Shown piece after piece: positions 17,256 through 30,367 of a stretch of 32,830 nucleotides of DNA (positions within the stretch are counted from its first letter, which is position 1; each line of letters starts with the position of its first letter). The position numbers and the translations under genes are program-made. The notes below the pieces were generated by a model, which was not told where the DNA came from, searched no databases, and saw nothing but the letters and a program-made list of their open reading frames with translations. The DNA is taken from positions 1 through 32,830 of the IMG/VR virus record IMGVR_UViG_3300036801_000211, one strand, 5' to 3'. The stretch is from a virus.

Positions 17256-17693
17256 TTAGGACGTCGCTTCGAGCACTGGCTGGCCGGTGACCATGATGGT
17301 TACCGGGGCCTGGTGGACACCGGCCACCGGCGCCGCGATCGGCCCGTAGGCCGTCACGTAACCAGAGAACGCCCACCGCTTGCTCAGCCGGGGATAGACC
17401 AGACGGAAGTGCGTCGGGTCGTCGACGTCGATCAGCGAGCCCAGGCCTGTTGCCAGGTCATGAGTCGCGTCGGACGGATCCCAGTTGAGCTCGAACGTGA
17501 CCTGGCCGCCATCCTTCAGGGTCGGAACTCGCTCCTTGTACCCGTCCGGAGAGTCGTGCGCCGTCACCTCGACGTTGTCGCGGGTCATCTGCGGACCCGA
17601 GATGTCCTTCACGCCCGCGACGGTCGTGAAGGCCTCGGTCATTGCGCCGTCGCCGATCTGCAGCTGCGCCCCGTAGCTGGCCGTTGCGCCCAT
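17256..17693 (-). CDS. Major tail (tube) protein
   Basis: A 145-residue tube subunit. The sequence has the gpV/TP901-type pattern: FTTVAGVKDISGPQ near the start, then VEVTAHDSPDGYKERVPTL, then GGQVTFELNWDP, and a C-terminal YVTAYGPIAAPVAGVHQAPV strand pair. It would stack in hexamers around the tape measure. It is coded immediately after the capsid and a small protein and before the connectors, unlike the usual siphovirus order. Confidence 0.85.
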   Translation of the reverse strand: MGATASYGAQLQIGDGAMTEAFTTVAGVKDISGPQMTRDNVEVTAHDSPDGYKERVPTLKDGGQVTFELNWDPSDATHDLATGLGSLIDVDDPTHFRLVYPRLSKRWAFSGYVTAYGPIAAPVAGVHQAPVTIMVTGQPVLEATS

Positions 17694-17697
17694 CGAC

Positions 17698-18033
17698 TTA
17701 CTCGCCGATCGGCTGGGCCTTCACGTCGAACGTGAAGGACGGGGTGGTGCCACCGATCGTGTAGCGCGCCCGGAGGCGCGCGAAGAACGGCGTCTGGATG
17801 TTGAGGACCTCCCGGGCCACGGCGGTCTTCTGGCTGAAGGTGCCGATGGTGTTCCAGTTGGTCCCGTCGATCGAGTCCTCGAGGACGACGTCGAGCGTCG
17901 GGGTGGTGCCCGACGCTGCCGTCACGTTCAGCTCGGCACGAAGCGCGAGCATCCCCGTGTCACCGAGGTTGTGGGCTGCGGACGATCCGCTGGCGGTCTT
18001 CGCGCCAGTGATCGCGAAATCGATGACCTTCAT
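17698..18033 (-). CDS. Small beta-rich head protein, possible decoration protein
   Basis: A 111-residue protein between major capsid and major tail genes, with a strong ribosome site (AAGGAGGAG, five bases before the ATG), suggesting high expression. The sequence is nearly all beta strands (MLALRAELNVTAASGTTPTL, DVVLEDSIDGTNWNTIGTF, then FFARLRARYTIGG). Similar small proteins are common in siphovirus head modules and may decorate the capsid or form fibres. I cannot name a family with certainty. Confidence 0.7.
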   Translation of the reverse strand: MKVIDFAITGAKTASGSSAAHNLGDTGMLALRAELNVTAASGTTPTLDVVLEDSIDGTNWNTIGTFSQKTAVAREVLNIQTPFFARLRARYTIGGTTPSFTFDVKAQPIGE

Positions 18034-26111: not shown

Positions 26112-26320
26112 GTCAGGAGCTTCACCAGGGCGCCCGCGGCGTGCGGCGCCTCGAGCCGGATGTAGACCCTCGACAGCGCGTTCTTAACCGTCGACTCGGC
26201 GACGCCGAGCTTCTTGGCAGCTGCCGCGATCTTGTCCGACTCGACGTACACGGCGAAGATCTGGGCGTCTCGTGAGGACAGGCCAGCCCGCAGGGCAGCG
26301 TCGTAGACGGCCGAGTTCAC
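26108..26320 (-). CDS. LuxR/GerE-type HTH protein, candidate late regulator
   Basis: A 70-residue protein that is almost only a GerE/sigma-4-like DNA-binding domain: LSSRDAQIFAVYVESDKIAA, then KKLGVAESTVKNALSRVYIR, with ESTVKNALSRV as recognition helix. It starts at GTG, overlapping the integrase stop by three bases (GTGA). It lies between the integrase and the predicted late promoter, so it could switch late genes on or off, or help regulate excision. There is no receiver or ligand domain. Confidence 0.75.
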   Translation of the reverse strand: MNSAVYDAALRAGLSSRDAQIFAVYVESDKIAAAAKKLGVAESTVKNALSRVYIRLEAPHAAGALVKLLT

Positions 26321-27600
26321 TCGCGTGACTCCCTGCGTGACTCCCTGGGCCGTGTTTCCGCGAGGGAAGGCGGGCGGCTGTTAACCGCTTGGTCGTAGGT
26401 TCGAGTCCTACCGCCGGAGCCATTTTCTCCCTCATCTGACGCACTCGGCGACACTGCATCGCCAGTCGCGTGACTCCCTGCGTGACTCCCTGGCCGGTGG
26501 CCGACGGCGCGGTCCATGAGCTTCGCCGTCGCGCGGCGCTGCTCGGGTGTCGTCGCCGTGTAGATGTCGAGCGTCGTGACCGACGAGGCGTGGCGCAGAA
26601 AGTGCTGAGCCATCGACGGGTGAGCGCCCTGGTCGGCGAGTAACGCGCCGGCGCCGTGGCGCAGCTGGTGGACGTGCATCTTGGGCAGGCCGGCCCTGGC
26701 CATCAGCGCCTGGAAGTGATGGCCGAACCAGCTGACGCTGACGGCCAGGCCGCGCTCTGTGGTGAACATCAGCGCGACCGGGTCCAGCCGCTCCACGTGT
26801 CGCTTGAGCGCATCGAGCACGAAGTCGGGCAGGTCGATCGTGTCCTCCGACGTCTCGCTCTTCGCCGGCGCGAGCTCTGCCCGCGATCCGGATCCGCGCA
26901 GCTGGTGGGTGACGGTGAGAGTGCCCCCCTCGAGGTCGACGTTGTCGACCGTCAGGCCGAGGATCTCGGACGCGCGCAGCGCCGCAAAGCCGAGTGCGTA
27001 GGCCGCCTCGTAACGGTCGCCGGCGATCGCGTCGAGGATCGCGTTGGCCATCTCCGGCGTCATGGCCAGCTGCCGGCGCCGCGGCACCCGGCGCAGCTTC
27101 ACGAGCTTGGCCTCGTTGCGCTGGATGTGGCCGCGCTGGTAGGCGACCTCGAGGGCAGTGCGCAGCATCAGCTGCGCGTTACGGATCGTCTTCGGGCTGG
27201 CAGGGCCCATGTCGACGAGCGGGCTGCGAGGGCCGTTGTACCTGGTCGCCCGCATCCGGTTGCACGCTTCCTCGATGTGTTCGGCGCGAAGGTCGACGAG
27301 GGCGATGTGATGGATCGGCGCGAAGTGCTCGACGCCGGCGCGGTAGCCGCGGATCGTGTTCGGCGCGACGGTGCCGGTCACCGTCTCAGCGAGCCACCTT
27401 CGGAGGTAGTCGCCAAGGCTGCGCTTTGACGGCTGGCTCCACGCCTTTGCCGACCCCTCGAGCTCGGCGAGCGCGGCGGTTGCTTCGCGGCGCGTCTTGC
27501 GGATCCGCTTGGTGTACTTCCGGTCGTTGCGGCCGCCCTGGCTCCATTGCGCGACCCATTTCCCGTCCGCTCGCTGGAAGATCGACCCCTGACCTGGCAT
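26317..27600 (-). CDS. Tyrosine-type site-specific integrase
   Basis: A 427-residue integrase for insertion into a host tRNA-Asn gene. An N-terminal arm-binding domain (GSIFQRADGKWVAQWSQGG), a SAM-like core-binding domain (SLGDYLRRWLAETVTG, TIRGYRAGVEHF), and the catalytic domain follow. Active residues are visible: Arg in FAALRASEILGL, HQLRHGAG (H-x-x-R), the His in LRHASSVTTL, and the nucleophile Tyr in LDIYTATT. The last 60 residues (GENGSGGRTRTYDQAVNSR) are coded by the antisense of the attP tRNA copy and its arm repeats, so the tail is a by-product of attP. The ATG at 27600 is preceded by GAGAGGGG. Confidence 0.93.
   Translation of the reverse strand: MPGQGSIFQRADGKWVAQWSQGGRNDRKYTKRIRKTRREATAALAELEGSAKAWSQPSKRSLGDYLRRWLAETVTGTVAPNTIRGYRAGVEHFAPIHHIALVDLRAEHIEEACNRMRATRYNGPRSPLVDMGPASPKTIRNAQLMLRTALEVAYQRGHIQRNEAKLVKLRRVPRRRQLAMTPEMANAILDAIAGDRYEAAYALGFAALRASEILGLTVDNVDLEGGTLTVTHQLRGSGSRAELAPAKSETSEDTIDLPDFVLDALKRHVERLDPVALMFTTERGLAVSVSWFGHHFQALMARAGLPKMHVHQLRHGAGALLADQGAHPSMAQHFLRHASSVTTLDIYTATTPEQRRATAKLMDRAVGHRPGSHAGSHATGDAVSPSASDEGENGSGGRTRTYDQAVNSRPPSLAETRPRESRRESRE
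26321..26348. repeat. attP arm repeat, copy 1
   Basis: Two tandem copies of GCGTGACTCCCT (26323-26334, 26335-26346), with TC before and GG after. The same 28 bases recur at 26466-26493 on the other side of the tRNA copy. Likely integrase arm-binding sites. Confidence 0.75.
26371..26422 (+). other. attP core: 3' part of tRNA-Asn (GTT)
   Basis: The plus strand carries 52 bases that match the 3' part of a tRNA-Asn: anticodon stem-loop with CTGTTAA, variable region, T-arm with TTCGAGT loop, 3' acceptor strand and CCA. There is no 5' half, so it is not a working tRNA. Phages that insert into tRNA genes carry such a copy to restore the gene after integration. Confidence 0.9.
26466..26493. repeat. 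attP arm repeat, copy 2
   Basis: Identical to copy 1 over 28 bases, again two tandem GCGTGACTCCCT units (26468-26479, 26480-26491), in the same orientation on the opposite side of the attP core. Confidence 0.75.
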
Positions 27601-28064: not shown

Positions 28065-28228
28065 TTGCTGGCTTCGTTCGTCGCTGGGCGGCCTACCCAG
28101 CGCATCCTCACGACGATGCCGTTCTCGTCGCGCTCGATTGCCCAATGCGACGCGACGGATTCGACGCGCACGCGCTCGCCGGGAATCGCGCCGAGCGGTT
28201 TACGGGTTTTTGGATCGACGAGGATCAT
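28061..28228 (-). CDS. Small hypothetical protein
   Basis: A 55-residue protein starting at the ATG overlapping the resolvase stop (ATGA): MILVDPKTRKPLGAIPGERV, with RVESVASHWAIERDENG and VRMRWVGRP after. It looks like a small all-beta domain. No family is recognised. Confidence 0.5.
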   Translation of the reverse strand: MILVDPKTRKPLGAIPGERVRVESVASHWAIERDENGIVVRMRWVGRPATNEASK

Positions 28229-28704
28229 CGCTGGTCCGCCCAGGTGACGGCGACCGCGAGCGCCTGCCACTCGTCGGCGGCGATGCCGTGCAGCGGCCCC
28301 GGCGTCTTCATCGTCCCAACCGCGGCCGAACGTCCGCCAATCCCACCGAATCGGTCAACAAGGGCGCCGCGGATCATCGTGTCGTTGGCGGTCGCCTTGC
28401 CGGTGAGGTGGTGGCGCAGCTTGTTGCGGCCGATTCGGGCGAACGGGATCCCGCGCTCCTCGGCTGCCTGGCAGAAGCGGCCGACCCACCACAGCGTCTC
28501 GGTTACTTCCTTGCCGATGTGGGAGCCGAACGAGCTCTCCATCCACTCGATGGCGAGGACGTCAAAGCGGGTCTCCTTGACGGCGGCGAGGACGAGCTCA
28601 TTGAGGTGCTTGCCATGCGCCATGATCGGCCGGCTGTCGCCAACCTCATAGCCGACCCAGCCGGACAGCTGCGAGCCGGGGTCGATGGCCAGGACAACGG
28701 TCAT
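28225..28704 (-). CDS. RuvC-like Holliday junction resolvase
   Basis: A 159-residue RNase H-fold nuclease. The acidic set is in place: Asp8 in LAIDPGSQLSGW, Glu53 in LAIEWMESS, and Asp144 in GIAADEWQALAVAV, with His139 nearby. RuvC-like enzymes cut recombination or branched DNA before packaging. The gene lies just left of the repeat region, next to the replication ATPase. The ATG at 28704 has a short frame ending in ATGA upstream, but that frame looks non-coding. Confidence 0.85.
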   Translation of the reverse strand: MTVVLAIDPGSQLSGWVGYEVGDSRPIMAHGKHLNELVLAAVKETRFDVLAIEWMESSFGSHIGKEVTETLWWVGRFCQAAEERGIPFARIGRNKLRHHLTGKATANDTMIRGALVDRFGGIGGRSAAVGTMKTPGPLHGIAADEWQALAVAVTWADQR

Positions 28705-29002
28705 GACTGGGCCTCAGCGGGCCACTGGACGGGCGACATCGCGAATATTTCTCGCGGAAACGTAACGGCGTGCCGAGGGGGGAGAGGTCGACGAGACATT
28801 TCCGCCGCGCCGCCCCGTCGGAACGACCCAGACCGGCACAGGCCGAGCGAACGCAACGCGGTTGCGCCGGGCGCCTCGGGCAGATCGCCCGCTGGCCGCA
28901 ACCTCGACGGCTCTCCCCTGTAAGGGGAGCCGAGAGTTGCGCTGCCCTCGGAAATTGAAAGCGCAACTGTTGCGCAACCGGTTGCGCTTTGGCTCGTCAC
29001 GC
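28705..29002. other. Non-coding repeat region, candidate replication origin
   Basis: A 298-base stretch without a convincing gene. It holds an AT-rich patch with inverted CGCGA and TCGCG (28740-28756), a hairpin at 28913-28929 (CTCCCCT, loop GTA, AGGGGAG) and several GTTGCGC/GCGCAAC heptamers, most densely at 28961-28987. A frame at 28701-29015 is coupled at both ends, but its translation looks random. Repeats plus an AT-rich patch beside a replication ATPase suggest an origin; terminator or operator roles are also possible. Confidence 0.5.
28961..28987. repeat. GCGCAAC repeat cluster, copy A
   Basis: GCGCAAC, one base, GTTGCGC, then the 16-bp palindrome GCGCAACCGGTTGCGC (28972-28987). The flanking AAA and TTT extend the outer arms. 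The downstream CTCGTCACGCT is shared with copy B. Confidence 0.75.
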
Positions 29003-30367
29003 TCAGTCTGCCCATAGTCCCTCGACCTCCCCGACCTCGGCCTCGTCCTGATGAAGCGCAACTTGTTGCGCAACCGGTTGCGCTCCGGGCAGCTCGTCAC
29101 GCTGCACGGCCGCCCAGTGACCGCTCGCGAGCTTCATCACGAAGCCCTGCTTGGCCAGCTTCGACAGCACCGCGCGCACCTTGTTCGCCGGCTCGCCGAC
29201 GTAGTCGCCCAGCTGCTTGACGTCCTTGCCACCGGCCAGCAGCGCGGTGTAGATGCGCGTCGCCAGTGGCTTGTCGGCCTCGAGCTTCTCGTCCGTCACC
29301 TCCTCGCGGAAGAACGAGATCTCGCCGTCGCCGCGCGCCACCTTGATGCCCATCGGCGCACCGTGGCCCCACTTCACGTCGTCATTGAACTTCTCCTGGT
29401 AGAGCGCCAGGTGCATCGTGCCGTCGGGATCCGTCGAGCCCGCGCGCAGCTGCCACACCGAGCGGCTCAGCCACTTCTTGTAGACCGAGCCGTAGGGCTT
29501 GACCGCGCGCTCCTCGCGCGTGATGTCGGCGCCCGCCACGTGGTCGAGCAGGGCGTTCGTCGTGGGCAGGTGGCCGAGCGCCGCGAACAGCCGGCGGGTG
29601 CTGTCGTTGGCGTCGCCGCCATCGCCCCGGGTCGGCTCGGCGAGCCCGACCGAATCGACCACCACGAGCCTGTCGCCGTGTTGCGCTACGTGTTGCGCTA
29701 CCTCGTGAATCTGGTCCGTGAAAGGGATGCCGTTGCCCCTTCGATAGCAGATCTCCGGCGGCTCGAGACCGAGCCCCTTGGCGATGCCGGCGATGCGGTC
29801 GTTCCACTGCCGGTACTGGCCCTCGTAGTCGACGATGAGCACGCCGCCCGGCTCAGGCACGCGCCAGCCGTCCATCGTCGTCTTGCCCGTGCGCATGGCC
29901 ACGGCGATCATCGCCATGAGCGTCGACTTGCCGGCGTCGCCCTCGCCGAAGATCGTCGTCGTCTCGCCGCGCGGCAGGATCGGCTCGACGCACCACTCGA
30001 CGGCGTTGATCGGCGGCGCGGTGCCGACCGTCTCGAAGGGCTGGCCAGTGCGCTCATGCTCGAGCACCGCCAGGCAGAACTGCTCGAGCATCTTGCGCCA
30101 CTCCTCGGCGGGCGTGCCGTTCAGCCGGCCGAGATCGGTCGCCGTCTGCTGGCGGTCGGCGCGCGAGCTCGCGCTGAACTTGGCGCGCAGCAGGTGGCCT
30201 TCCGGCGCGCGCTCGACCGTCAGCTCGCCGACCACTTCACCGCGGCTCTCGTAGATCCTGTCGAGCGACAGGCTCACGCCCTTCGCCACGAGTGTGCCGA
30301 CGTAGCCCAGGCCGACGCGCTCGACCTGGAGCTCGTCGGGATCCTGGGCGCGGCGTCGCGCCGTCAT
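29003..30367 (-). CDS. RepA-like replicative ATPase/helicase (AAA_25, RecA fold)
   Basis: A 454-residue replication ATPase. Walker A at 141-149 (GEGDAGKST) and Walker B at 234-239 (LVVVDS) match RecA-fold hexameric helicases; VLIVDYEG at 176-183, LLDHVAGAD and PYGSVYKKWLSRSVWQLR are typical of the RepA/AAA_25 phage group. The C-terminal part at about 360-430 (IYTALLAGGKDVKQLGDYVG, VRAVLSKLAKQGFVMKLASG) is a winged helix. The gene's 3' end carries copy B of the GCGCAAC repeats. The start overlaps the previous stop (ATGA). Confidence 0.85.
   Translation of the reverse strand: MTARRRAQDPDELQVERVGLGYVGTLVAKGVSLSLDRIYESRGEVVGELTVERAPEGHLLRAKFSASSRADRQQTATDLGRLNGTPAEEWRKMLEQFCLAVLEHERTGQPFETVGTAPPINAVEWCVEPILPRGETTTIFGEGDAGKSTLMAMIAVAMRTGKTTMDGWRVPEPGGVLIVDYEGQYRQWNDRIAGIAKGLGLEPPEICYRRGNGIPFTDQIHEVAQHVAQHGDRLVVVDSVGLAEPTRGDGGDANDSTRRLFAALGHLPTTNALLDHVAGADITREERAVKPYGSVYKKWLSRSVWQLRAGSTDPDGTMHLALYQEKFNDDVKWGHGAPMGIKVARGDGEISFFREEVTDEKLEADKPLATRIYTALLAGGKDVKQLGDYVGEPANKVRAVLSKLAKQGFVMKLASGHWAAVQRDELPGAQPVAQQVALHQDEAEVGEVEGLWAD
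29056..29083. repeat. GCGCAAC repeat cluster, copy B
   Basis: The same unit as copy A with two bases between the first heptamers and the identical 16-bp palindrome at 29068-29083, 96 bp away. It lies inside the end of the ATPase gene, where it encodes QPVAQQVAL. Confidence 0.75.

Follow-up and report, generated by a model that had tools for sequence, protein, structure and literature searches.

The segment 28852-29083 of a virus contig is most probably a replication origin, or the main initiator-binding part of one, in which the replication ATPase would bind its own word, GCGCAAC, through a C-terminal winged helix; judged from sequence comparison, we put the probability of this reading at roughly 84%. 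Origin iterons at the end of the replication ATPase gene, as the sequence-only reading had proposed, are the interpretation supported best by the comparison, namely by a conserved array position, by array-wide replacement of the word and by covariation of word and winged helix, with origin activity as the predicted consequence. The term window is used here for the whole stretch of DNA analysed (32,830 nucleotides). This virus contig of 32.8 kb has a GC content of ~67%; its genes include one for a tyrosine integrase, one for a RuvC-like resolvase and one for the AAA_25 ATPase. The features discussed are as follows.

29003..30367, minus strand: replication ATPase, 454 aa, with AAA_25 / RepA-like P-loop motor, candidate initiator (Pfam AAA_25, E 4.7e-19)
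29108..29260, minus strand: C-terminal winged helix by topology, residues 370-420, proposed word reader (AlphaFold2, pLDDT ~88)
29150-29188, minus strand: predicted recognition helix ANKVRAVLSKLAK, residues 394-406 (AlphaFold2 model)
29056..29083: iteron unit 1, four heptamers, in the ATPase coding tail, encoding AQPVAQQVAL
28961..28987: iteron unit 2, four heptamers, 3' of the ATPase stop codon
28897..28942, minus strand: hairpin core, GCGCAAC - GC hairpin - GTTGCG, the words pairing at the stem base
28913-28929: GC hairpin CTCCCCTGTAAGGGGAG, between the inverted words
28852..28867: distal word sites, CGCAAC at 28852 (plus) and GCGCAAC at 28861 (minus)
29680-29689 and 29692-29701, minus strand: GTTGCGCTAC pair (AGCGCAACA type), in the ATPase gene, encoding VAQHVAQH
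~28739-28757: patch TCGCGAATATTTCTCGCGG, previously described as AT-rich
28225..28704, minus strand: RuvC-like Holliday-junction resolvase, 3' of the array (PHROG 1770, E 1.7e-10); in L185, the array is likewise followed by a frame that looks similar by eye

Proposed Iteron Array and Hairpin Core

Counting on the window sequence revealed ten exact GCGCAAC/GTTGCGC heptamers in 28861-29083, starting at 28861(-), 28936(-), 28961(+), 28969(-), 28972(+), 28981(-), 29056(+), 29065(-), 29068(+) and 29077(-). The cluster reported by the sequence-only reading is present where it was placed and lies far beyond chance: in a scan of all 7-mers in the window it ranked first (n = 10, p 2.7e-18, with 0.08 GCGCAAC expected per 250 bp), the baseline being 60 simulated windows, in which the best cluster reached 1e-8. 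Comparison of the heptamer count with expectation, proposed earlier as a check, gave 25 copies in the whole window versus 10.5 expected, a number reached by 0/100 shuffles; the excess falls mostly in the cluster, and the 15 copies outside it are near expectation. Six-base CGCAAC sites at 28852 and 28897 extend the earlier list. Another of the window's stronger word clusters, below that of GCGCAAC, is CCTTCAC(G), four times in 250 bp at 17606-17850; AGGGAGTCAC/ACTCCCT repeats, four in 250 bp, occupy 26317-26580, where the tyrosine integrase gene has its 3' end, and are possibly arm-type sites of the integrase or attP.

The 16-bp palindrome GCGCAACCGGTTGCGC was found twice, at 28972-28987 and 29068-29083, confirming two composite units 96 bp apart. 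Word spacing inside a unit is 11-12 bp, and the GTTGCGCTAC pair, likewise recovered at 29680-29701 in the ATPase gene, has its word sites 12 bp apart. The ATPase stop codon lies at 29003, so that of the two units only that at 29056-29083 falls within the gene, in agreement with the claim that one unit is coding, and 6/10 cluster heptamers lie outside the gene. Selection at the DNA level in the coding part, suggested on the same occasion, gains support from relatives, in which the tail after the winged helix often consists of word-encoded repeats.

The AT-rich patch of the sequence-only reading is present at ~28739-28757; the core holds a GC hairpin instead of a clear AT-rich stretch. A strongly AT-rich melting site was not found near the array, where the lowest GC was 50% in 40 bp and the sequence between the two units has 62% GC; in contrast, the 85 bases past the stop have 25-32% GC in the related loci L147-L149. 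GC skew of the window showed no clear inflection and speaks neither for nor against an origin.

The hairpin, overlooked before, is framed by inverted words; the DNA fold of the core gave z -3.1, and the word-framed pattern occurs once in the window with 0.08 expected. A standard terminator is less likely, because no T run follows the stem. Hairpins with their own inverted words at the base were also seen in L147, L148, L149, L150, L151, L152 and L190, though not clearly in all of the AAA_25 set. By analogy with the ssi hairpins of RSF1010, the structure may have a role in helicase loading or priming.

The ATPase and Its Predicted Winged Helix

Pfam analysis of the ATPase returned AAA_25 as the sole family above the cut-off, so that the protein was not placed in a family of the P4, SaPI or PICI type. 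The structure model of the whole ATPase was of low confidence (pLDDT 43), and the C-terminal domain alone was used. A Foldseek search with this domain retrieved winged helices (best E 1.5e-3), namely O-methyltransferase N-terminal domains, HmgR and ADAR1 Z-alpha. The tail is predicted to be disordered in the structure model, and the protein ends in EVEGLWAD. The likely reader of the word is this winged helix at the C-terminus of the ATPase itself. The separate HTH protein that the sequence-only reading had named beside the ATPase gives way to this domain.

The predicted helix with VRAVL in the window resembles FRTVL, LRAVL and LRTVI of the proteins whose arrays carry GCGCAACA, and is unlike FRREL and FRTTL, which go with other words. 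Past the conserved arginine, the window has AV, the GCGCAACA readers have TV, AV and TV, and those of GCGGGACA and GCGTGACA have RE and TT. This agreement, seen in four proteins of which three are related, is suggestive. Neither tblastn nor peptide patterns retrieved a close relative of the ATPase from viral contigs, plasmids or genomes, and a search in phages gave one weak match; conservation is therefore argued from proteins ~24% identical.

In the proposed mechanism, the ATPase encoded at 29003-30367 would bind GCGCAAC by its winged helix and, because words are 11-12 bp apart within a unit, several copies could share one face of the DNA. The bound copies would load the RecA-like helicase ring, and the GC hairpin at 28897-28942, extruded or exposed as a single strand, might assist loading or priming. 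With its target words lying beside and within the gene that encodes it, the initiator could move together with the origin as one module, and a change of reader domain would allow a change of word. The array, its significance and conserved position, the array-wide word replacement, the covariation in relatives and the predicted winged helix come from the sequences themselves; binding of the word, melting, the part played by the hairpin and origin activity are inferred from them.

Related Initiators with Replaced Words

Relatives were reached by scanning for runs of three consecutive heptamers and then looking for AAA_25 among the matches other than collagen; most contigs with triple heptamers were collagen-like tail repeats and were set aside. 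Two Mixta prophages were found to encode an AAA_25 primase-helicase with a GCGCAAC array directly 3' of the gene, and their kin L148-L152 have arrays in the same place. The word differs: GCGCAACA in L146, L149 and L150, which are close relatives of each other; GGGACA/GCGGGACA in L148, where nearly every copy at matching positions has changed with one or two variant copies; and GCGTGACA in L151 and L152. Replacement throughout an array with the layout kept is, in such sequence comparisons, the trace expected of a sequence-specific protein reader. In L146-L152, the entire arrays are non-coding.

Genome searches with the window ATPase and L194 yielded more AAA_25 initiators whose arrays have other words, including TGAAGCA, TGCAACA, TGGGACA, GGGTGGA, GTTGGGA, CTTCCCA and GGCGACA. 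A significant word array was present at the 3' end of 25/35 AAA_25 genes (below threshold in the other 10/35) versus the 5' part in 1/23 of the same genes, and at the 3' end of 59/63 VapE-type genes versus the 5' part in 0/63; the genes were gathered by homology and partly by word searches and are not a random sample, so that these rates describe the set only and not a population. A profile search (A3) of 395 genomes from the order to which Mixta belongs added few members, and the capsid, used as bait for relatives, yielded none.

Words lie inside the coding tail, as in the window, in L183, L194, L196, L198, L225 and L226. They encode low-complexity tails past the winged helix (SQPSQPSQP, VSHVSHV; the window counterpart is AQPVAQQVAL), and the tail peptide of relatives changes along with the word. 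Because L196 and L225 share RKTLYRM but differ in word, the helix alone does not fix the word. After the variable tail, a conserved acidic-aromatic tip (PDYEEF, PDGEDF, DEEWMN) was observed in L194, L196, L197, L198, L225, L226 and L232, resembling in sequence an SSB-type interaction tip. Three related initiators of a single genome, G121 (L183, L194 and L225), each have a different word in the coding tail, and two prophages of one Mixta mediterraneensis genome (L165 and L166) have 99% identical AAA_25 initiators with the same word, providing a natural case for origin incompatibility.

The window itself combines an AAA_25 motor, a predicted C-terminal winged helix, a word array at and inside the gene end and, within the array, a hairpin framed by inverted words. 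When the 19-base composite was tried as a marker, 16 viral contigs matched, 0 of them with AAA_25. In L009/L018, the composite lies at the end of a D5-type helicase gene that has CCGCGGCTACC as its own array word, and in L003, of the group named after it, an array next to the VapE-type gene was not found; for these two reasons, the palindrome alone is not diagnostic.

Covariation of Word and Reader

Covariation was measured in families other than the window's own, with 80 VapE-type loci giving 72 proteins that have a clear word of the form NNNNCAACC or NNNNCCACC. In these 72 proteins, word identity went with the ~20 C-terminal residues rather than with the body: once body identity was accounted for, the partial r was 0.76, against at most 0.18 in shuffles, and the ten columns most informative on the word are all in the tail. 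Among pairs at least 96% identical in the body, tail identity was 0.95 with the same word versus 0.51 with a different one; this comparison within a band is the stronger part, because phylogeny is not preserved in the shuffles. VLRR tails occur with GTAAC, VTRR or SRR tails with GTTAC, VQRR tails with GTACC, GTCCC or GGAACC, and GKQQRVF tails with AGACAACC. Between L156 and L157, which have 98% overall identity, both tail and word differ. Exceptions are three proteins with VQRR/KVLKVW tails and mixed GTAACC and GTATCC arrays. Arrays mixing GTAACCACC and GTATCCACC were observed in the VapE-type loci L303, L310 and L311, possibly caught midway through a word change.

Across ~100 related phage genes, each initiator appears to have its own word, with word and reader apparently changing together. 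The practical outcome is a simple rule for finding phage origins: search the 3' end of the primase-helicase gene for a private word. In many near-identical initiator pairs (e.g., L156/L157), word and reading residues differ together, with the reader beside several targets, so that origin specificity, prophage compatibility and origin-targeting defence can be put to direct test; such pairs also bear on the standing question of how DNA-binding proteins acquire new specificities. More tentatively, and at a little under even odds in our estimate, winged helix or wing and origin word may together constitute a modular recognition code that can be read across phage primase-helicases, with hypervariable, private words replaced array-wide under pressure of compatibility or escape from origin-targeting defence; the window would then be the case of VRAVL with GCGCAAC.

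Alternative Explanations

The array might instead be an operator, with the palindromic words binding a repressor or the ATPase and controlling transcription at the ATPase-RuvC junction without any origin. The 16-bp palindromes are operator-like, HTH proteins are encoded in the window and autoregulation is common among initiators; yet the array lies at the 3' end of the initiator gene and not at a promoter, different families share this position, the word varies in step with the C-terminus of the initiator itself, and P4 has the same layout in crr, a replication region required in cis. We consider an operator unlikely. A partition (centromere) site, or a site of packaging or recombination rather than an initiator-binding origin, is less probable again: parS sites can also be iteron-like arrays and the RuvC-like resolvase adjoins the array, but a ParA/ParB-like gene was not recognised among the neighbouring ORFs scanned, and the covariation in relatives is with the C-terminus of the initiator.

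That a protein motif (AQPVAQQVAL, VAQHVAQH) drives the coding repeats, with the DNA words as by-products, would account for the copies at 29056-29083 and 29680-29701, which are coding. It is very hard to reconcile with the six of ten cluster heptamers beyond the ATPase gene and with the wholly non-coding arrays of L146-L152; moreover, the tail is predicted to be disordered and the peptide changes with the word in relatives. We regard this explanation as highly improbable.

Comparison with Known Systems

As a positive control, the method was applied to the 3' end of P4 alpha and returned GTGAACA, the annotated crr type 1 repeat; with N15 repA as a second positive control, an array was not found. 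Immediately 3' of alpha comes the crr of P4, in which ten type 1 repeats are annotated, and like the window, P4 has an array of two repeated blocks directly 3' of an initiator gene, whose product joins a helicase motor to a C-terminal origin-reading domain. The C-terminal domain of alpha reads the origin, and alpha is a primase fused to a helicase of a different type than the window ATPase. P4 further differs in its word (GGTGAACA), in that the array is not in the alpha coding sequence, and in a second set of sites (ori1) ~4.5 kb away. At the oriV of RSF1010, a RecA-like hexameric helicase (RepA) acts together with iterons and with ssi hairpins for priming; there, a separate RepC reads the iterons, whereas in the window the reader appears fused to the helicase.

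The Rep of SaPI and of Gram-negative PICI (Pri-Rep) and Cch2 resemble the window in having short iterons directly downstream of the helicase gene. Action of Rep helicases on downstream iterons is experimentally established for SaPI and PICI; SaPI Rep recognises, through its C-terminal domain, iterons that directly follow the rep gene, Cch2 of SCCmec binds direct repeats downstream of its own gene, and plasmid assays gave origin activity for SaPI/PICI, with a PICI pri-rep-ori segment replicating a plasmid (PMC7581432, PMC6092414). PICI origins have two iteron sets around an AT-rich region, where the window has a GC hairpin and no strong AT-rich stretch; unlike SaPI/PICI, its iterons lie partly inside the gene and its motor is AAA_25. 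With P4, SaPI and PICI, the window shares the array at the 3' end of the initiator gene and a predicted C-terminal winged helix; an SF3/D5- or VapE-type motor and an AT-rich site between iteron sets were not found in it.

In the V. cholerae PLE, RepA's DNA-binding domain and the iterons of the origin vary together, and replication requires a cognate pair; a phage nuclease mimicking this reader domain is thought to select for origin change (PMC8263062). PLE RepA_N parallels the proposed covariation of reader domain and origin iterons and differs in its RepA_N fold, N-terminal reader, ~30-bp iterons and origin in a separate noncoding region. Word-reader covariation on the scale seen here was not found described in the searchable literature, with most subscription journals outside its scope, and the pairing of initiator winged helices with origin words constitutes a natural dataset, apparently unrecorded. 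Proteins with a primase, a RepA- or VirE-type ATPase and a winged helix have been described as PrimQH (PMC5862659). Given the precedents of P4, SaPI/PICI, PLE and PrimQH, the mechanism is of a known kind, and what sets the window apart as a variant is the AAA_25 motor, the iterons inside the gene and the word-framed hairpin.
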